Assembly (NCBI GenBank): GCA_001574975.1
Contig: KQ965731.1
Coordinates: 434,001-498,000, forward strand
Reading direction: 5' to 3'
Source of the DNA: Gonapodya prolifera JEL478
Taxonomy: Eukaryota > Monoblepharomycota > Monoblepharidomycetes > Monoblepharidales > Gonapodyaceae
DNA: 64,000 bases
Within the stretch, counting starts at the first letter, position 1. Each line of letters opens with the position of its first letter. Made by a program: the position numbers and the translations under genes. This document shows, one piece after another, positions 30,111 to 64,000 of the stretch. The notes under the pieces are model-generated. The model saw only the letters and a list, made by a program, of their open reading frames with translations, did not search any database and was not told the DNA's origin.

Positions 30111-32869
30111 TGAGATCCGTGCCGCTGTGAAGCTACGTTGATGCTCTTGGACGAATACCAACCACGGACCTTCCCACCTCCAACCCAGGTCTCACCTTCA
30201 CTCTTCGCGCCGACCCGAACGACACCATTGCCGATCTCAAAGAGCGTCTGTGCAACGCCCAGGGCCTTCCCGTCCACGCCCAGAGGCTGCTGTATAGGGA
30301 CACAGAGCTGTCGGACGAGTTCAAGAGCCTCGCCGATTGTGGCATCAGGTCCGGCGCGAACCTCAATTTGGTGCTTAATTTGGTCTCGGGTGAGTGCTGG
30401 TGCCGCGAGCGCAGCGAGCACCGAGGCCTAAGCGCCACTAGGCGCTGACCGAGGACATGGGCGCAGGGAGTGTGTCCACCGGAGGCGAATGACCCTGCAC
30501 GAAGCGCGTAGTACTCCCGCCGGAGGCGAATGATCTGCGCGGAGCGCGAATGACTCAACGCGGAGCGGAATACAGCGGAGCGTCATCGAGGCCAAAGTCC
30601 AGAGCGCTGACCGAGGCTGGTTGGGTTGTTGGGTTGCTCCGCGCTGGAGTGTCGTGCCGTGCATATGGTTCCTCGTCTCAGAGGACAATGCCGTTGAGGG
30701 CGCACATACCATATCCTCAGGATGGGGGCAGAGTGTGCTGTATCTGTGCCAATCGGATGACTCTTTCCGAATCGCATACACTCTGGAGGTACTTTCATGG
30801 TGGCGCAAGTACGATTCTGCGAGTCGCCAATGTGTCAAGAGGGCGAATGCATCCACAAAATCCCCCTAACTCTTCCCCCACGTGTATTCTCATCTCGCCC
30901 AAACCTCTCAAACATTTGCACCGACACCGACACCCCACTAGGAAACGCCCCTCAACTCCGCACGCTGCCCAAACCCCAAACACCCTCTGGCCTGTACCTC
31001 CTCTTCCTTAAATCCGACGACGACGACATCTACCTCGAACTGCGCAACGGCGCACGCGCACCGCTCCGACACCGCATCAACCTCTCGGGCGTGGGCGCGC
31101 TCTCACAAGATGGGACACGCGCCGCAGGTAGGATCGACCCGCTGTCGGGGTTCGGGCTGGAACTCCTCCACGCGGCGCAGATGGACTCTGCGGGGAGCAC
31201 GCCGCGACAGCTCTCGGCCGCCGGGTGTGGGCCTGGGTCCGGGTCCGGGTTGCACACCGAAGCGGAGACGGAGACGGACTCACCCCCCACGTCAGCACCG
31301 GGAAGTGCCGACTCGAGCATGTCAGACGGCGAGGACGGTGCGGGCCTGGTCCGCCCATTGTCCGGGGACTCGCTTGCCTCATCGCTCTCGGCGTCCTCCA
31401 CGTCGCTGTCGTCCCCGCCCCGCTCGTCGCCGCCGTCGGCCAGGTCGTCGCACTGCGCCAAACTCAGGTGTGTGCCCACGTCGGCGTCTACAACCACCAC
31501 CTCCACGTCCGAGGAGGACTGCGAAAGGCCGCAGTCGTGCACGCCCTCGCTCCGCTCCCCGGCGTCAAGCCATTTTCCATCCTGCTCTTCATCTCGAGAA
31601 GACCTCCCTTTGCATCCAAGCCCGCTCGCCCAGTTCCGGTCCCTCATGACGCCCCTGCCACCGCTCCCTGTCTCTGTCTCGACAGGGTCTGGGCCGCAAC
31701 AGCGCGCCCGCCGCAAAACCCGCCCTGCGACGTCGCTCTGTCTCAAGCGCGTCCCAGGCGCGCAAATCAACATTGTCGTGCCGGACACGAGACCTGCCAG
31801 TGCTGAAGTGTCCCGCGGGGGCAGAACGGGACTCCCCGCCGCTGCCGTGACTGCACCCCATGCGCACGCACCCGCAACCCGCACGCACCCTCCACCGCAC
31901 GGCGCTGACTCGAACGTATCAGATGCCACCGTGGACAGCGCCCTCGCCGCGCTGGCTGAGCGGGTGGCGGCGGCAGCCACGGACGGACGCAGGGTGGGCG
32001 CAGGTGCTGGAATGGTTGGTGACGATTCTGGAAAGAGCCGTTGTCGGGCCACACCGCCCCCGTCCGCAATGCTGGTGCCCCGCCCGGGCCACCCGTCACC
32101 GCCTTCGTCGGCGTCGGCCAGGGTAGGGCGGACAACAACGTCGACTCCCCTGAGTCTGGCGTCCTCTAGTGTCGGCACCGACGCGCGCACGCCTAGCCCA
32201 CTGACCCCGTCGTCGTTCGGGCTTCCGCTTGATCTGGACGCGGATCTTCCACTTCCCCTCCCAGCCCTGTCCCAGCGGCACTCCTACTCGCCGCACACTG
32301 CACTTGCCGTCGCCGACGTGGTGTTTTTGGGACCCATGGAAGAACCATCGTCGCAAGGCGGAGCACAGACAATGGTGGCGGCGATCAGAGTGAAACCGGC
32401 GGGAAAGGCCGTGCAGATGCAGCATGGGCGCGGGCGGGGGGTGAAGGGAGTTGGGTCGGCAGGGTCTGTGGGTTCCGTAGGGTCCCAGGGGCAGAGAGGC
32501 ACCTTGCGGCGGACGGACAAGACGGGTGTCAGCGCTGCACGGCCCGCTAGTCGGGGCCAGCATGGTGGCAAGCCTGGCTCGTCATGCACGACCACGCCGG
32601 GAAGGCACGCGACACCCGCCCCCGCGCCACCAACGCCGCCGCCACCTACCCCTCCCGCGACGCACTGCGTTTTGTGCCGCGCCCGGCTGCGCCCCGCCGG
32701 GTCGTTCCCATGCAAGTTCTGTCCTCGCTCGACGCGTTTCTGCGCCGCGCACCGGTTGCCCGAGCGGCACGCGTGCGTGGGATACAAGGACGGTTACAAG
32801 AAGGAGGGAAGGGAGCGGTTGGGGAAGGAGTTGGTGAAGGTTGCGGGGGAGAAGGTGGGGAAGGTGTAG
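30100..32869 (+). CDS. Ubiquitin-like domain + AN1 zinc-finger protein (ZFAND4-like)
   Basis: The N-terminal exon (about 30130-30389) encodes a ubiquitin-like domain: VDALGRIPTTDLPTSNPGLT, DTIADLKERLCNAQGLPVHA, QRLLYRDTELSDEFKSLADC, and SGANLNLVLNLVS. After a repeat-rich intron the main exon (about 30800-32869) starts near YLLFLKSDDDDIYLELRNGA and continues as a long Ser/Pro/Thr-rich linker. It ends in an AN1-type zinc finger, THCVLCRARLRPAGSFPCKF then RSTRFCAAHRLPERHACVGY, with the C-x2-C...C...C...H...H/C ligand pattern. UBL at the N-terminus plus a C-terminal AN1 finger is the ZFAND4 architecture. The role is presumed to be in ubiquitin/proteasome or AAA-ATPase-linked quality control. The exact first exon and the 3' boundary of the intron (anywhere from about 30680 to 30845) are unclear. 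Confidence 0.75.
30390..30680 (+). repeat. GC-rich short-repeat block inside the ZFAND4-like intron
   Basis: Directly after the splice donor (gtgagt at 30390) come repeated motifs. ccggaggcgaatga occurs at about 30479 and 30520, gcgctgaccgagg at about 30445 and 30606, variants of gcggagcg follow, and agcgcc-acta-ggcgct at about 30432 is a perfect 6-bp hairpin. It looks like a compact non-autonomous or slipped-repeat insert, not coding sequence. Confidence 0.5.
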
Positions 32870-33081
32870 GAGTGTGGTGGGTCACTGCAAATTAGCCTTT
32901 TAAAACGTTTTTTTTAACGGTATCATACCGAAATTGAATATGTAATCTACACATGCTTTGCCCGTCTCCTGCCTCATTCAGCTTAATACAAACTGAGAGC
33001 GAGACACCGTAGTGGTGCCTGCCCGTGCATTGAAAGCACCCTTTTGTCGGGTGCATCTAAGGCTACCACCCCCCCGTCCCT

Positions 33082-34447
33082 CTACGACTCCTCCACCGGA
33101 GCTTGCACGTTCCTCAACGACTCGGTATACCTCATCGCTTCGGCACTGCCAGCGGGCATCACAAAGCCGAACGGGCGCCGTCCGAGAGCTATCATTGCAT
33201 TGATGGCGAGGTAGGCGATGATCGAGGCTCCAGACGAGTCACGGTTCAGCACGAGGTGGCAGCACGAGCAGCCTTTTCAAAACGTTCAACTGGTTAGCAT
33301 TCAAACGGGAGACCAAATGATGAAGGGCAAACTCACGCTTGATCGTCCAAGCTACTTTCCCGTCCTCCCCCTTGAGCCCGAAGAGCTTACCTATCTTGCA
33401 GTGACCACATCTCTGAGACGTGTAATATTCCTTGATGAGGACGAGGAGAATTTTGCGAGCTTGGTGGATGAGATGGAGGAACCGCAACAGCTGAAACAAT
33501 GTATAACAATCAGAATATCTTTTCAACGCCAGAGAATAAAGGGCAAGGCAACTCACCTTGCGGTTTTGGAGACGACGCCGACACCCGGGAACTCGTCCTG
33601 AAGTTGGCGTTTCCAAAGGTAACAACAGGACGGACATCTGGGGTGGGAAACTGAACCGGTTCCACAACGGCAGAGGATTTCGCAAAAAAAATGACGCGTT
33701 TTGAGGCGAATAGGTCGTTTGCGATTCTCGACATCGCGGCCTGCGACCTCCCGTACGAGTGCATCCTGAGATGTCTGAAGCGCAATCGATAACATGAGAA
33801 AAATGGTTACACATTGTGTGTAAACATGAGACTCACCTTTCCCGTTTGCTCCCAAAATGTTCTGATGATAGACAAAAGAGTTTTATCACTGAGCGTGCAA
33901 AAGCCTCGCCTTCGAGACTTTTACTCACTCGAGAGAGGCTTGAGGTTAGCGAGGATGGTAGCAGTATACGCCTCAAATTTGGCGACATTGCTTGTTTTGG
34001 GTGTCGGGAGGCGAGAAAGGAGTACTTCGACGCTTAAAGTTCCAACGTCGGTCAAGGTATTTGAAGTCGAGTCAAACACCTTCGCATTCTATTGTTGCAC
34101 CCAGTCAATCTGCCGAAAACATTGAAACTGCAAGTGCGATACTCACTGGGATCATACTCTTTGTTCTCCACGTCTCGCGCAGCTTCTGAGCTTTCACATA
34201 TCGCGCGCCTCTGCCAGTCATCGTTCCCAAGAGGACGAATCACGACCGAATCCCACACTCCTGTCCCACTCTCAGGGTACATTTCCTCGATGTAGGCATC
34301 GAAGTCAGTCTCCAACGTCTCCTGTCGCAACTTCTCCTCATTCAGCGTGACCACATGTCGGTCGAATTCAGCGCTGTGGCCTGCCGTACCTCCGCTTGCA
34401 AACCTGGTCAGGAGAGAGATAAAAGGTGCAGTTTCATTTCTATTCAT
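33082..34447 (-). CDS. Fanzor (eukaryotic TnpB-like OMEGA) nuclease, C-terminal RuvC half
   Basis: Six exons read on the minus strand: 34447-34147, 34024-33929, 33861-33837, 33774-33557, 33490-33337 (or from 33459) and 33272-33082. Fanzor1-like blocks appear in order: WQRRAICESSEAARD; FEAYTATILANL; HFGSKRERHLRMHSYGRSQA and AMSRIANDLFASKRVIFFAK; VVTFGNANF (the G[D/N]A-x-F block); IKEYYTSQRCGHC (relocated Glu and first Cys pair of the zinc ribbon); then KRCSCCHLVLNRDSSGASII (second Cys pair and the RuvC-III NRD). The protein ends GRRPFGFVMPAGSAEAMRYT and on to PVEES. Fanzors are RNA-guided DNA nucleases carried by eukaryotic mobile elements and related to TnpB/Cas12. At about 320 residues this one is half the usual length: the N-terminal WED/REC region and a clear RuvC-I D-x-G are not visible. 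The exon 4/5 junction keeps frame only with the 33459 acceptor, which drops ten plausible residues. It is probably a decayed or domesticated copy. Confidence 0.78.
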
Positions 34448-34460
34448 CGTCTCAATCACA

Positions 34461-35740
34461 ATGGAAACAACGGAAACCAATCGCGCCGTGTAAGTCCATT
34501 GTATCAGCCAACAATCGCTGCTCTTGCTCAACACATCAATCTTCCAACGCAGTCTCGTTTTCGGTGCCACGGGTCGCATCGGATCTGCTATCATCCGCGC
34601 CCTTACGGCGGCACTCTCATCTTCTTCCCTCGAGATTCACGCAGCGACAAGGGACGTTTCATCTCCTCGCGCCGCGCTGTGGAAGGACACCCCCAATGTC
34701 CACCTGGTCCACGCCGACTTTGACAACCCGACCTCCCTCGACGAGGCTCTCAAGGGCGTATGGGGCGTTGTGCTCGTTACGGTTTGGGGCAAGGGGGACA
34801 CTGAGAAGAGACAGGTAATTTTCCGCGACTGAGGTTCGACGGTGGCTCCTTCGACCATGAACTGACTCTTGATCTTTCATTGCAAGGGCATTGCCGTCGT
34901 TGACGCAGCATCCAAGGCTGGCGTGTCAGCCCTTGTATACATTTCCGACCCAACCCTGGCGAATGGGACGGCTGTGCTGTATGTCCACCGTTCAAGACCT
35001 CCTCCACCTTCCAAGCTCTTCTGACATCACCACGCACCTGTTTTTCACGCAGGAACCCAAACAAACTACCTATCGAGGAGCACGTCCTGAGCGCCCAGAT
35101 CCCGCACAAATGCGTCCTCCGCCCCGCCTTCTACTACGAAACCTTTCTGCGTCCCTCAGGCCGCCTCACTCGGGGGAGTCTCTCGTTTCTCACACCGACA
35201 GACGCAGTCGTCACGTGGTGCGCACTGGACGACGTGGGAAAAGCCGTACGTGCGTACCTCCAGAATCCGGTTAATGCCAGCGGCACGACGGTTGATCTGG
35301 TGGGGGAGGTGATGTCGGTGGCCAACATGGCCAAGGTGCGTTATATCTGCAACGTCGCACATGAAAGGGGCGCTCTAGTGGTCACACGTCCTTCCTCCAT
35401 AATCCCACGATGCACACAGCACCTTTCGGACCTTACAGGCGCTCCATGGACGGCTTCCCAGTCCCCCCCTCTGTTCCTCATTCGCCTTGTTAGTTCCCGC
35501 CTGTACCAAGCAATACTCGCCGTGGCAACGACACCTGCGGTATCTGTGGTGAGGCGCATTGTTCTCACAACTGCCACACTAGCTTACATCCTTGAATTCA
35601 ACCGTGCGCAGCCACCACACCCGGACCTCCTCCCCGAACCGCAGACCTTTCAAGGGTGGTGCACGGTTAAGGGCGTCGGATCGGGAGATTATGTGTGGGA
35701 CCGCACGTGTTTAGAGTGGGCGATGGGGAGGGAACCGTGA
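34461..35740 (+). CDS. NmrA-like / SDR-family NAD(P)-binding protein
   Basis: The start at 34461 (METTETNRAV) splices to LVFGATGRIGSAIIRALTAA, a GxxGxxG Rossmann motif. The following text is typical of atypical SDRs of the NmrA group: SLEIHAATRDVSSPRAALWK, NVHLVHADFDNPTSLDEALK, GVWGVVLVTVWGKGDTEKRQ, then GIAVVDAASKAGVSALVYIS, and CVLRPAFYYETFLRPSGRLT. These correspond to the regulatory NAD(P)-sensing fold, with no clear YxxxK catalytic pair. The C-terminus (exon from about 35440) runs to 35740. Introns lie at about 34490-34552, 34816-34887, 34980-35052 and 35337-35439. It may be a redox sensor or reductase acting in the cytosol. It is divergent from the Fanzor-like gene, with start codons separated by only 13 bases. 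Confidence 0.82.
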
Positions 35741-35846: not shown

Positions 35847-38800
35847 TCAGGCACCAGATGACAACAAGCACGCGCATCCGCACCCTGTAGGACACGCCTG
35901 CTCCGCACTTTCGGCAAACCACGCCGCCATGCATTCGGTGTGGCCCCCGTGGCGACACACGGGGCAGTACACGCTCAGTCCGCGTACTGCGGTCTCACAG
36001 ACTTTACACGTAGCGCGGGCCGCAGCGGTGTTGCAATTGGAGCACAACGCCGGGCGGGAGAGCGTGGGCGTGGGTCGGGTCCGAGATGGGGTGCCATCGA
36101 GATCCAGCTCGTGTCCGCAGTTGGAGCAGAGATGGACAACCTTGGGGCTGTCGTTGCGGCGGTCGGAGGGCTCGACAGTGGAGGACGGATGTGCACGGAT
36201 AAACTTGAGGACTTCGCTGCGTTGCTGGAGGAGGCCCCATTGGTGGAGGAGAGAGGCATATCCGTACAGGTATTCATTGTAAATGTGGGCTCGGGCGGGA
36301 TCTAAAATGGTGTGTGATCGGATGTCCTCATTCGGCTTTCGATTTTGGAACTCCACGGGGCAAAACCTAAGTGTCGCGTGAAAACACGTTTGGAACATGT
36401 CAAAAAGAATGTGAGGTCCACTTAATACAATCACCTACCCGATTTCGTCGTCAGGGAACTCCCCATACTCCGCCACTCGCTGAACAGTAAATGACGATGT
36501 AGTCTGCCGTATTTTCTCTTTCGGGCGAGCCCCATCACGTTTCTTTGCGGCAACAACCTCGTCAACGACCCTGGACAGAGCCGGTGATCGTCCAAGCTCC
36601 ACTGCCGCTCCCGTTCTTTGAGCAACAGCTCCTGTCGTCACAGGCTCAGAGCTCGTTGGTTTCGAGAGCTGTGCTGTCGTCCCATAGCGAAACAGACTGG
36701 AAAGTCCGAGTCCTGACTGAGATGGTTGAGGGGTCGTTCCGGATTGGTGTGGAGCGGTTTTGTCACCTGCTGAGGACTTCTCGTTTCCCGAAACAAGAAA
36801 AGTGTGCGGAGAGCTTGCGAGTCGACCGTCTGTGATATTCTGAAATCGATGGTGGGAAGGCGTGGGGTCAACCGGAAGAATCGGGGGAACTTTTTCTTGT
36901 TGGCTTTGGCTGCTGGATTTCTGTCCAAGCCCGAAAAACGCTGCAAAATAGCTCATTTCTCCGGGCGCGGGGGACGGCGTGGCGGCACGTGCTGCTATAA
37001 TTGGTGCTCGATGGGTCGACTTTGAGTGATGCTCCAGGGTGGAGAACGCATCCGACTGTCGAAACAGGGAACAAAGGGCTCAGAGTAGGTTGGATCGTTT
37101 ACCGTTAACCTTGTACTCACGATATTGAACGTCCGCCGTACCGCACTTCGGGGTAGAAGGTCAGGAGTCCTGTTCTCCAACAAGACGCAAGTGAGTAGAG
37201 CTAAGGTTTGCACATCCTTGAGCACTTCCAGACGAGAAAATCTGGTCAAAGATCAATGACAGTTTTGTGAACCCATTGCGCCGAGAAAGAGGTGTGGACT
37301 CACATCTTATCAATAAGCTTTCGACCCAAAGGGTGATTCCGCCAGTCCACACGTCCCCAAAACATGGCCGAAGGGGGTGCGGTGTCAACAGCGAGCTTTC
37401 CATTTTGAAGGAACCGAATGCGCTGACCAAAAGCAGCCCTGCCTCTGCCGACAACATCCGAGGATGTTCCACCAACAGGGGAAGGGATGCATCGAGTGAG
37501 GATAATCGCGACGCTGCTCCAGAGTTTAGCGAGGTCTGGGCGATGATTCTTCCTTGCAACAGCCTCGTTTGAGATGCACACATCAAGCGGATCTGTTCCT
37601 GACAAGGTGTATTTCGATGCAAGAGATCGACTGAAGGGGAGCAAGTGCTCGAAGTTTGCGACTTTGACGACAGTTCCCAAAGTCACTCGTGGCAATACAT
37701 CCGTGGATGATTGAGAGCCTCGCTGGGAGTTCGAGTGTTGGGAAGGTGGAGCCACCATTCCTGCGTTTTCAAAATATGATGAGCATGATGTTCCCCTGAT
37801 GTTCTAGGCTTACGGCTCACCTGCCTGAATAATTGTGCCTTTCGATTCACCATTCTCCGGAGATTCGTAGAACAAACGAGTGGCTGGACCGGCCACAATG
37901 TTCATCCGAGACAAATCTTCCACTGCCTTTATCCCAGCGCCAACGCCAGACTTGCCTGGGGTCGGCACGGTTCCAAAAGGAATGTTGTCGGTCCCGGAAA
38001 TCAGTTCGTCATCCGAACCAGTTTTTCTCGGTCTTGGTGGATCTCGCGGATCAGTTTGGGGAATCGCAACCGGGTTTGTCTGTCCGAAAGTTGCTCTCGG
38101 AGTCGTTGGTGAGCCTGTAGAGCCGGGTGACGTCGATAGTCCACTCGATTTCCTTTCTGTGGCGATTCGAAGTGATTGTCTTTGCATCTGGGGCGATGCC
38201 ACGCTGTCTCCAGATTTCAATGCAACGCTATCTCCAGATTTCACCGAAGTCCACGAATGTTCCTTGTGTGCGAGCTGAACTGACACAACTCCTGATTGTT
38301 CAAAGATTACGCGGGGTTCATGATAGGAACTACTCTCCACTTTATCCACCACTTTCGGTTGCGATCCAACATGATCCTCTGCCGCCGGAATGTTGACGGT
38401 GCTGGGCCTTCGAGAAGGCTGCTTGAGTGCTTGAACGAGTCTCACTTTCTCCAGCATGCCCGACCAGATCGTTGTTCGCTGTTTGCCTGTTGTTGCCTTT
38501 TCTGGAAACAAACCACGCATCCAAGAAGGCTCTGCGGCTTTCTGACGGGAATCGTCGAGTGCTCTTTGCAGAACAACCTCACCCGTAATCTCATCACATT
38601 TCACAGCGTCATCTTCCCCAATCCCCATACCGGATAGCGTTGCGACAGCATCTTGAAGTAGGAAGTCTCGATACTCTTCGTATATTGGATAGTTGCGAGG
38701 CATGGAAACATCCTTATTTCCTTTACGATCGGCCTCCTCTTCCGAGCCACTTGATAAGAAACCTGTATCGCGCGGGTGAGGGATTGGTGACTTGAAATAG

Positions 38801-61093: not shown

Positions 61094-64000
61094 TTATCGC
61101 GTCTTGGAAGTTGACCGATCCGGCGGGGTTATGTCAGTCGGAGGGTCGTCAAAGCAAACAAGCGGGAAGAATCCAAAGTGTGCCGTACTAATGTTCACCC
61201 CCTACAGACACGAAACAGACATTCAGAATCTCGCATGTTTGATCGACGAGCAGTCAAGATCTTACCCATGCCCATCCATCAGAGTAGTCCGCTTTAATGG
61301 ACACCGAGTCCCCATACCGGAGTTCCACTTCGTCAGGTGATCTTGGCACAAATCCAGAAACAACATAATTAGGTGGCTCGGCGGACTGTGAGTCGAGCTT
61401 GACCACAAGGCCTTGCAAGTACCGCTCTTGATAGTTTATTCGACGTTCCAGTTCTGCGTTGATTGCTTGAAGTTTCACAACCTCCGCTTGGTCTTTCTCA
61501 AGTTTTTGAATCAAAGCGGAATGCCGTTTGAGCTCCTCTCTCAGTGCATCGCGCTGACTGATAAGCGCCGCGTGCCGAACTTGAAACGGAGCAATCATCT
61601 TCTGAATGTCTGGGTCAGTCAATTGAGGATCTTCAATCGCATAAGTCTTGTGGAGCGCAGCGTTTCAAACTTCAGCTTACCAAACGATGAGCAACCGCAC
61701 TTACCCAAGACGACTCCTGACTGCCATCCGAGTTTGAAACTTTCGAGAGTCCCGGTTCCTGACGTTCGCCCTGAGTCACATTACCCGAGACCCCCGACGA
61801 TGAAACCACCACTCGACTCGAACTAGTTGAGGTAGATTTGCTCTCGAGATGTGTTGCCGATTGTCGCATAGTTTCCGCTGCATTGTCAACTCCGGATTTA
61901 CTGTTTGCAATGTGTAATCCGGCTGCACGAGCTCTCTCCTGTTCAAGCTGATCCATTAGGGCTTTCTCACGATCAAGCTCCTGCCTCAGAAGTTCGAGTT
62001 GCGTTTGTAGCTTCGCAGTTCGAGCGCGGACTTGAGGAAGTAGAGTCCCGACTTCGTCCTCTGATGCAACAAAAGTGTCACCAGGCGCTTCCGAAAGCAA
62101 GAGAAAATAAGACAAAGCAGGGAGAAGCTCTGTACTTTGTACTCACAGGGGTTCGCAGTGTTACTTCCGTTGCCCAGAGCTGTTCCCAAGGTGCCAGTCA
62201 TGGATTCCGACACACCCCGGACATTCGACATCTCCGTTACGACGGTTCTTTCGCTACTGGCGAACACAGACTTGGAATTCCACCCGCTTGCAGTTGAGCT
62301 CACTCGGGTCATGTCTACACTTGTGCCAGTGGGGAGCGGCGATATGTTCTTCGTGACAAGAGGTGTCGTCGTGGCTTGTGATGAAAATCCGTCAGGTTGG
62401 AATGGCATCCAGTTCTCTCAAATATATATGTCAAACTCACCGCCACTACGATCTCGATCTTCCCTGTCCCAGGGAAGGTCCCATCGAGGAGGGCTCCCAG
62501 AATGCACGGAAGATGTGACTCCGCTCTGAGAAAAGTCGCGCCACTCGGTGTGGTTTGTGACTGAATGGCATATACAAATCATAAGAATTTAGCGTCAGGG
62601 GTTGATTCAACATGAAATAGCATCATACCAGTCGTGCCAGCCGCATCCATGTTGTATCCACCCTCTCTGACAATTCTCCGCGCAATCATTCGAGCCGACG
62701 CACTTGTGGATTGGCTCTCACCACCGTAAACGGTTTCTTCATGTGATATGCCGCTATGAGCCGAACGCCTAATCACTCTGCGCACTGTGGTCGTAGTTGT
62801 GGTGACTTCTGGCTCTTCTTCTTCAAGAACTTCTTCCTCGACGGGCTCCTCTTCGTGAACAATGCGTCGGACTTCCACCTTTTTGACGGTCTGCGCGTTC
62901 ACTATTGGGTACTCAGTCGCAACATCGTCAACTTCAAACTCCTCCACAATTGCTGGACCTGGTGCCTTCGCAGCTTGCCCCGCGTCGGTTGGTATACTTG
63001 GTAACGCTCGGAATCGCGCTGCCGCGACAGGACCGCTACGCACATTCTGGAAGACACGCGAAGTAGCGACCGAAACCTGGGAGCTAGTTTTGAATGCTCC
63101 TTGGCTTTCCGTGCGATATGCGCTTGTCTGCGTCCTTTCCCGAGAGTATCCACTACTTTCTTCTGAGATCTCTCGGGACTCGGACACAGCGTGCACTTGT
63201 CGCAGAGTGGAAGAGGACGTCACCGTCGTGGTTTTCGTCTCTTCACGTTGCTCAATAGACTCCTGCTCTTGCACAGCGCTATGACCGGTACGTTTGATGA
63301 GGCGGACCGTCACTGTTGTCGTTTCCTCTTCGGGTTCTTCATCCTCGAGCTCCTCTTCTATCTCAGCCTCTTTTGTACGGACAATATGTCGTTCAACCCT
63401 TGTTGTCGCGCTCTGAGAAAGAAGTTCTTCTTCGACCTCCTCGACCTCCTCGACCTCCAACTCTTCAGGAACAACCACTTCAACTTCGTCGACCTCGTCG
63501 GCGTAGACTTCCTTTTCCTCGAGATACTCAACTTCGACAGACTTTGCAACCTCTTTCACCGCAGCCTTCACCTCCTTTCGCACGATCACTTGCTCCACCG
63601 TGACAATCTCAGGATCCTCGAGCTCTTCGACTTCGAGTTCGAGCTCTTCGTCCACTTCGAGCTCCTCCTCTACACTGCCGAGATTGACTTCCTCGACTTC
63701 TTCCAGTTCGTACTCTGACTCATCCTCTTCAACAACCAGCTCCCGAGGCCCTAAAATGATGACCCTTACTTCACCCACATCTTCCTTCTCTTCCACTTCT
63801 TGCTCAACCAATACCACGGTTTCGACGCTTTGTTGTGCTTCCTCCAGTTCAAACTCTTCCACTTCCACTTCATCCTCCACACTTATCACTGAAAGACTCC
63901 TTTCAACAATAACGGGAACGTCTTCTTCCGGCTCAGGTACTTCCCCTTCCGCGGGTGGGCTGGGCTCGGGATCAGGAGGTATGTCTTTCATGACCAGCGG
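61094..64000 (-). CDS. Glu/Val-rich coiled-coil protein with C-terminal SH3 domain (5' end off window)
   Basis: The first visible exon (about 64000-62625) is acidic and unusually Val/Glu-alternating (ESEYELEEVEEVNLGSVEEE), then Thr/Ser-rich. An internal repeat is visible: RRIVHEEEPVEEEVLEEEEP with TTTTTVRRVIRRSAHSG, against RHIVRTKEAEIEEELEDEEP with TTTVTVRLIKRTGHSA. Middle exons (62420-62150, 62110-61690) are Ser-rich with a coiled coil (RARTAKLQTQLELLRQELDR). A second coiled coil (about 61622-61430) precedes an SH3 domain: NYVVSGFVPRSPDEVELRYG, DSVSIKADYSDGWAW joined by an intron to GVNISTAHFGFFPLVCFDD. The ALYDY-like, DGWA and FFPLVC positions are present. The protein ends at 61094. The open frame continues to the right edge; MKDIPPDPEPS (63991) may or may not be the true start. 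Probably a cortical or cytoskeletal scaffold, by the SH3 plus coiled coil; partners unknown. Confidence 0.7.

Follow-up and report, generated by a model that had tools for sequence, protein, structure and literature searches.

A minus-strand interval (34447-33082) of the window, by which we mean the whole 64-kb stretch of DNA analysed, carries blocks that resemble the C-terminal core of Fanzor1 proteins, and the question it raises is whether these belong to a working nuclease gene, to a dying copy or to a half gene retained by the host. The answer we consider probable is a Fanzor1 copy that has lost its 5' part, is catalytically dead and is probably in decay; it is flanked on one side by an NmrA-family gene and on the other by an ORF that encodes an AN1-like zinc finger. 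Going by its family, the ancestor of this copy would have encoded a DNA nuclease guided by RNA. The remnant would encode, over five GTGAGT introns, the linker from RuvC-I to RuvC-II, RuvC-II with its relocated Glu, the TNB zinc ribbon and RuvC-III; its truncation may be tied to the neighbouring NmrA gene, and presumably no functional protein is made from it.

The blocks GNANF, EYYTSQRCGHC, KRCSCCHLVLNRD and GRRPFGF lie collinearly on the minus strand in the order given by the initial annotation, and the second zinc-ribbon block, between EYYTSQRCGHC and GRRPFGF, can also be read as (K)RCSCCHLVLNRD on this strand. KRCSCC is formed only through the splice 33337|33272. Each of the five introns begins with the donor GTGAGT (at 34146, 33928, 33836, 33556 and 33336, minus strand). 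Counted on the minus strand, this hexamer is present five times in the ~1.4-kb interval and 33 times in the entire 64 kb; the plus strand of the interval has none. Because all five donors are on the minus strand and none is on the plus strand, the exon structure is hardly a product of chance and the gene structure is very probably real. The DNA is thus shown to come from a eukaryote with introns, and its placement in a zoosporic fungus is a proposal of the initial annotation.

In the direction of the minus strand, to which all coordinates in this paragraph refer, the first exon holds two frames of interest. Open frame 1 (MNRNETAPFISLL...VVIRPLGNDD..., 34147-34447) is coding-like and without detectable homology, and its first ~68 codons form a unique start. 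The Fanzor-homologous frame FVLLGTMTGRGARYVKAQKLRETWRTKSMIP (34147-34239) holds a conserved segment, here called the GARY block (GRGARYVKAQKLRETWR), and is preceded by an in-frame TGA (34240-34242) that immediately follows the segment ECGIRS. An intron of 58 nt (34089-34146, GTGAGT...TAG) leads to exon x2 (33929-34088, NAKVFDSTSNTLTDVGTLSVEVLLSRLPTPKTSNVAKFEAYTATILANLKPLS), which resembles the linker from RuvC-I to RuvC-II of SpuFz1 (ESRIPSHKTMNLMDFTRYL). An intron of 67 nt (33862-33928, GTGAGT...CAG) is followed by the 25-nt exon x3 (33837-33861, HFGSKRE, read from the sequence) and an intron of 62 nt (33775-33836, GTGAGT...CAG) by exon x4 (33557-33774, HLRMHSYGRSQAAMSRIANDLF... VVTFGNANF ... 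SSPKPQ). By the strongest sites, the x4/x5 intron spans 66 nt (33491-33556, GTGAGT...TTTCAG). Exon x5 (33337-33490, LLRFLHLIHQARKILLVLIKEYYTSQRCGHC...) carries the relocated RuvC-II Glu and the first CxxC. The last intron, of 64 nt (33273-33336, GTGAGT...AAG), has a phase that agrees with the zinc-ribbon homology, and the last exon, x6 (33082-33272), supplies the second half of the zinc ribbon (CSCC), the RuvC-III motif NRD, the Fanzor1-like C terminus GRRPFGF and the stop codon at 33084-33082.

The relocated Glu stands six residues ahead of the first CxxC (E-YYTSQR-CGHC), a position that marks Fanzors according to the available text of PMC10711439. Both CxxC pairs of the zinc ribbon between RuvC-II and RuvC-III are kept (CGHC and CSCC), and the RuvC-III Asp follows soon after the ribbon (CSCC-HLVLNR-D). 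The presence of both acidic residues, as first annotated, was thus confirmed. A profile search of the spliced exons, which the initial annotation had proposed as a check on the Fanzor1 core, matched exons x5 and x6 to the Pfam TNB family (PF07282) at E 1e-7, with 32.4 bits against a gathering score of 26.3. The outcome set against the annotation, no match to any Fanzor or TnpB profile, was not what was seen in Pfam; in NCBIfam, the matches to TnpB (E 0.002) and Cas12f2 (E 0.0099) fell far short of the family cut-offs. Two transposase families were matched in PHROGs (E 2.2e-4 and 3.6e-4), and the PHROGs and NCBIfam matches only agree on an apparently TnpB-like C end. The middle piece was assigned to no Pfam family.

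Closer placement came from a Fanzor1 profile built on the C-terminal halves of five proteins: SpuFz1, GtFz1, PpFz1 and two viral-contig relatives, L043 and L045. The C piece (x5 and x6) scored 19.4 bits and x5 by itself 17.3 bits, each with no shuffle of 1000 scoring as well; for x6 by itself the score was -1.3 bits, which 35 of 1000 shuffles also reached, and for the middle piece it was 2.8 bits, reached by 3 of 1000. The middle and C pieces are collinear in the profile and scored 23.3 bits when joined. Across the 1541 stop-to-stop ORFs of at least 25 residues in the six frames of the 64-kb window, the exon-5 ORF ranked first (E 0.00095) and was the only one below E 1, the runner-up reaching E 2. 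The GARY block (GRGARYVKAQ...) aligned with GTTFRYTANQRAVETGS of SpuFz1 at 12.2 bits, a score attained by a fraction of 0.0006 of 5000 shuffles when the best among nine offsets was taken for the observed block and each shuffle alike; SpuFz1 itself, a member of the profile, scored 28.1 bits there. In tblastn, SpuFz1 matched part of exon 2 (34034-33966) with 39% identity at E 0.48, against E 0.45 for an unrelated place in the window, so the match is only suggestive of kinship. Our own spliced, frameshift-tolerant profile alignment, run without controls, recovered the exon-5 core alone (RKILLVLIKEYYTSQRCGHCK, 33.1 bits) with no upstream extension, and when limited to the upstream part its optimum, likewise without controls, lay at 16.2 bits in another, unrelated exon-4 frame. 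These runs add little in either direction and show upstream kinship to be weak in every separate part. The best Fanzor1 tblastn match elsewhere in the window, GtFz1 residues 69-143 at 11012-10794 on the minus strand (E 0.029, 25% identity), is probably due to chance.

Pieces of the window searched directly against PDB reached no Fanzor chain at E values up to 10, and kinship was therefore established through the intermediate L043. This is a complete Fanzor1-type ORF of 671 residues with a DPG motif (L043:1648-3663, IMG/VR contig 3300042562_001070); its C-terminal half matched the PDB chains of SpuFz1 at E 1.1e-17 and GtFz1 at E 1.5e-6, and a shorter piece matched PpFz1 at E 4e-7. A BLASTP comparison of a window piece with one Fanzor1 relative aligned only a 15-residue stretch, with 24.6 bits and an E of 0.001 that holds for this single comparison. 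The intermediate was reached by a looser motif pattern, which found a Fanzor1-type gene (L042) at the same place with less flank, and two profile scans of viral contigs yielded L044, on the contig of L043, and L045, a second Fanzor1 relative, and nothing else. Judged by these sequence comparisons, the locus is a derivative of Fanzor1.

The direct PDB search had also returned a PPR/cPPR identity (E 0.00012 to 0.11), which we rejected as no single stretch passes alone, and we set aside its other matches, to Cas12f/TnpB-type chains (E 0.2-2) and three odd ones. A tighter Fanzor motif pattern had no match in the viral contigs; other looser patterns gave 39 stretches, by eye mostly TnpB/Fanzor2-like, and two more that look unrelated. 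Nine ORFs of TnpB/Fanzor2 type on IMG/VR contigs (L003, L016, L024, L028, L029, L031, L035, L037 and L038) have the relocated Glu, and their RuvC-I motif is DPG in eight and DCG in L037, the latter being found also in L023, outside the nine. At another locus on the contig of L043 (L005), a separate stretch of 33 residues contains EEYTSKTC, a TnpB-like motif. Profile A1, made from nine Fanzor2-type proteins, had no Fanzor1 chain among its 36 PDB matches. Scanning the viral contigs with the window protein gave 33 stretches and no confirmed relative, none of 68 candidates from a profile scan of prokaryote genome contigs was a relative, and phage records held no relative; across the viral, prokaryote and phage collections there was no orthologue.

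The initial annotation had described the N-terminal WED/REC part and the RuvC-I motif as missing, and our searches agree with it. The best 11-residue match to RuvC-I in 34310-34200 scored 3.2 bits (p 0.27 from 3000 shuffles of the stretch), against 20.6-25.0 bits for five reference Fanzor1s, whose scores are flattered by their being profile members, and the three frames of 34310-34200 contain no DPG. The TGA at 34242-34240 sits nine codons before the first G of the GARY block in the same frame, and ECGIRS, which directly precedes it, falls within ~1 residue of the expected DPG spacing. Two candidate RuvC-I remnants were rejected: ECGIRS (frame 2, then stop), with p 0.013, and VVIRPLGND (frame 1), with p 0.004, each p holding for a single chosen place where the whole stretch gives p 0.27. 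REC and WED domains were not found, the upstream DNA being an NmrA gene on the opposite strand, and tblastn in the window with the Fanzor1 relatives gave best values of E 1.1 for L043 (all 671 residues) and E 1.3 for L045, a weak test given that N-terminal halves are variable. As neither REC, WED nor the RuvC-I Asp could be located, an active site of three acids cannot be assembled, and since the search for RuvC-I and the N-terminal domains came back empty, the locus was not filed as a working Fanzor. With a C-terminal half only and RuvC-I undetected, it would not act as an autonomous nuclease, as had been proposed.

The unique start of some 65 residues described earlier (68 in our reconstruction, from 34447 in frame 1) stood in that it has coding-like codon usage and no detectable homology, though its splice removes the GARY block. 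The Fanzor1 profile gave it -1.4 bits, a score that 91 of 1000 shuffles also reached, and its sole Pfam match lay below the family cut-off. Its codon usage was equalled by a fraction of 0.0175 of 513 out-of-frame null segments, in a test trained on 14 long window ORFs that were chosen by size and are not proven genes, 62582-63998 being left out. The corresponding fractions were 0.0097 for exon 2, 0.044 for exon 6 and 0.051 for exon 4; exon 5, the best Fanzor match, and the GARY frame were not coding-like (0.23 and 0.26). If the unique start corresponds to the variable stretch ahead of RuvC-I, as it may, a frame break would separate it from the GARY block.

Immediately beyond this start lies the NmrA-family gene, on the plus strand. 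Its first exon (METTETNRAV..., 34461-34489, 29 nt, its end read from the sequence) opens with an ATG at 34461, and the first two exons joined (METTETNRAVLVFGATGRIG...) matched NmrA (PF05368) at E 2.7e-14. This ATG and the divergent ATG proposed for the Fanzor remnant are 13 bp apart, so the NmrA promoter should overlap the Fanzor sequence. The gene, NAD(P)-binding by family, spans 34461-35737 with exons partly outlined; a later ORF (34904-35737) has an NmrA match that stays below the cut-off (E 1e-4). Beyond it, an ORF at 35850-36434 on the minus strand encodes a zinc-binding domain of the RING type (zf-RING_16, E 3.6e-15). On the other side of the locus, a 702-residue plus-strand ORF (30761-32866) is Ser/Pro-rich by eye and ends in an AN1-like zinc finger (E 9.9e-5, below the Pfam cut-off).

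The proposal that the exons are joined by GT-AG introns stood in so far as a fully open model exists, whereas the strongest sites between x4 and x5 (GTGAGT at 33556, TTTCAG before 33490) join these exons out of frame. With the donor fixed at 33556, only the weaker AAG acceptor ending at 33460, which gives an alternative intron of 97 nt, keeps the frame among the enumerated pairs 40-220 nt apart. The open model of 319 residues (MNRNE...EES) has seven exons and six GT-AG introns of 58-97 nt, uses this acceptor together with an intron at 34243-34186 (GTGATT...CAG), and seems to be the model of the initial annotation. It splices the 68-residue start to KLRETW..., removing the GARY block, and also loses LLRFLHLIHQ. 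Followed through the junction, the homologous frames score 23.8 bits against the Fanzor1 profile, as opposed to 18.5 bits for the 319-residue model. Stop-free, frame-keeping GT-AG pairs 40-220 nt apart number 25 at the x4/x5 junction and 28 inside exon 1, with 9 more joining exon 1 directly to exon 2. Since the open model lowers the profile score and frame-keeping pairs are common, a decaying copy is favoured, while the open model keeps some credibility, as the last intron also requires an AAG acceptor. In the homologous frame each of the exons x2-x6 is open, and the five introns have well-formed donors (GTGAGT) and acceptors, so that decay would be recent, or selection possible. The end of exon 4 can also be read in another frame (RVPGCRRRLQNRK), which was rejected for a poor codon score and a long gap ahead of RuvC-II; that score came from 15 training ORFs, including 62582-63998 in the wrong frame.

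Between the two fates that had been offered, a dying copy or a co-opted half, the dying copy fits better. For decay we count the stop at 34242-34240, which lies near the place of RuvC-I, the break between x4 and x5 by the strongest sites and the undetected RuvC-I, to which the nearby NmrA start may be added. Against decay stand the well-formed splice sites and open exons x2-x6, unusual for an old pseudogene; the coding-like codon usage of x1 frame 1 and x2, less clearly of x4 and x6; and the open 319-residue model, AAG acceptors being perhaps normal here. These features lend slight weight to a spliced 319-residue gene retained by the host, encoding the RuvC/TNB half of Fanzor1 without a catalytic centre as a DNA- or RNA-binding protein, and RuvC and NUC residues of SpuFz1 do contact the guide RNA in the available text of PMC10432273. 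We nevertheless regard such a gene as unlikely: its model splices out two stretches that score with Fanzor1 and skips a stronger CAG acceptor, its start codon and that of the divergent NmrA gene would be 13 bp apart, open models are cheap given the many frame-keeping pairs at the two problem places, and no orthologue appeared in the collections searched. More specifically, the RuvC-II/TNB/RuvC-III half might persist as this host gene with the former RuvC-I region turned into intron, a nuclease-dead and possibly guide-RNA-binding eukaryotic counterpart of bacterial nuclease-dead TnpB regulators, which we hold to be very improbable.

If the truncation and frame breaks were instead assembly or sequencing errors, the locus would be an active Fanzor1 gene, as its intact splice sites and most of its motifs would allow. 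The DNA upstream, however, is a plausible NmrA gene and not Fanzor, and DPG is lacking in all three frames of 34310-34200, which makes this reading highly unlikely. A chance resemblance, in a non-Fanzor TnpB/Cas12-like or an unrelated zinc-ribbon sequence, would account for the failure of window pieces to reach a PDB Fanzor chain and for the shortness of the BLASTP alignment; yet the Glu spacing, linker and GARY block are collinear with SpuFz1 and its relatives, and the introns and RP..F C terminus are present, so that we think chance quite improbable. A truncated, decaying Fanzor1 copy remains our preferred reading.

One Fanzor1 copy was seen in the 64-kb window. No convincing terminal inverted repeats and no target-site duplication were seen at the locus, and the two flanks examined share no common word of 8-12 bases; terminal repeats are not universal among Fanzor elements (PMC3627910). 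The fold of the 3' stretch 32870-33110 had a z of -1.70, with 11 of 200 shuffles equally stable, and no part of the window matched Rfam at the gathering score. The locus extends the known eukaryotic distribution of Fanzor1 by a single degraded copy, which is ordinary for the field, and would carry greater weight only if the truncated gene were expressed and under selection. Among the matches listed in the literature records consulted, none described a catalytically dead Fanzor kept by its host; none of the pseudogene-related papers mentioning Fanzor was on Fanzor by title, and no record listed for domestication or exaptation of Fanzor contained the word Fanzor.

TldR, which occurs in bacteria and phages, is a nuclease-dead relative of TnpB whose RuvC centre does not work. 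The window copy is like it in being a family member without a working RuvC centre and differs in that any expression or function would be hypothetical. In the accessible text of PMC13418256, TldR is a phage-encoded RNA-guided transcription factor.

One of the closest likenesses is to SpuFz1, the Fanzor1 of Spizellomyces punctatus (PDB 8GKH), which shares with the window copy the linker SRxPxxKTxN...F..Y, the block GxxxRY...Q...ET, the relocated Glu before TS..C..C, the NRD motif and the RP..F end. SpuFz1 carries REC, WED and the RuvC-I residue D383 (available text of PMC10432273 and PMC11423790), whereas no REC, WED or RuvC-I Asp was found in the window copy. S. punctatus has full-length Fanzor1 copies (PMC3627910), and its prototype SPu-1 element is a single ORF, in contrast to the five or six introns here (PMC3627910). 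GtFz1, the Fanzor1 of Guillardia theta (PDB 9CER), has in common with the window copy extra residues ahead of the GNxx strand, and its EHYTSQxC motif resembles EYYTSQRC; unlike the window copy, it is full length, with DPG present and Asn at the third catalytic place (available text of PMC11423790). Fanzor1 copies with a 5' truncation have already been described, in CRe-1 of Chlamydomonas (PMC3627910, available text). As presented there, CRe-1 occurs in many copies inside Helitrons, in contrast to the one copy, with no recognised terminal repeats, seen in 64 kb here, and it shares with the window copy the loss of the 5' half and the keeping of the 3' half.
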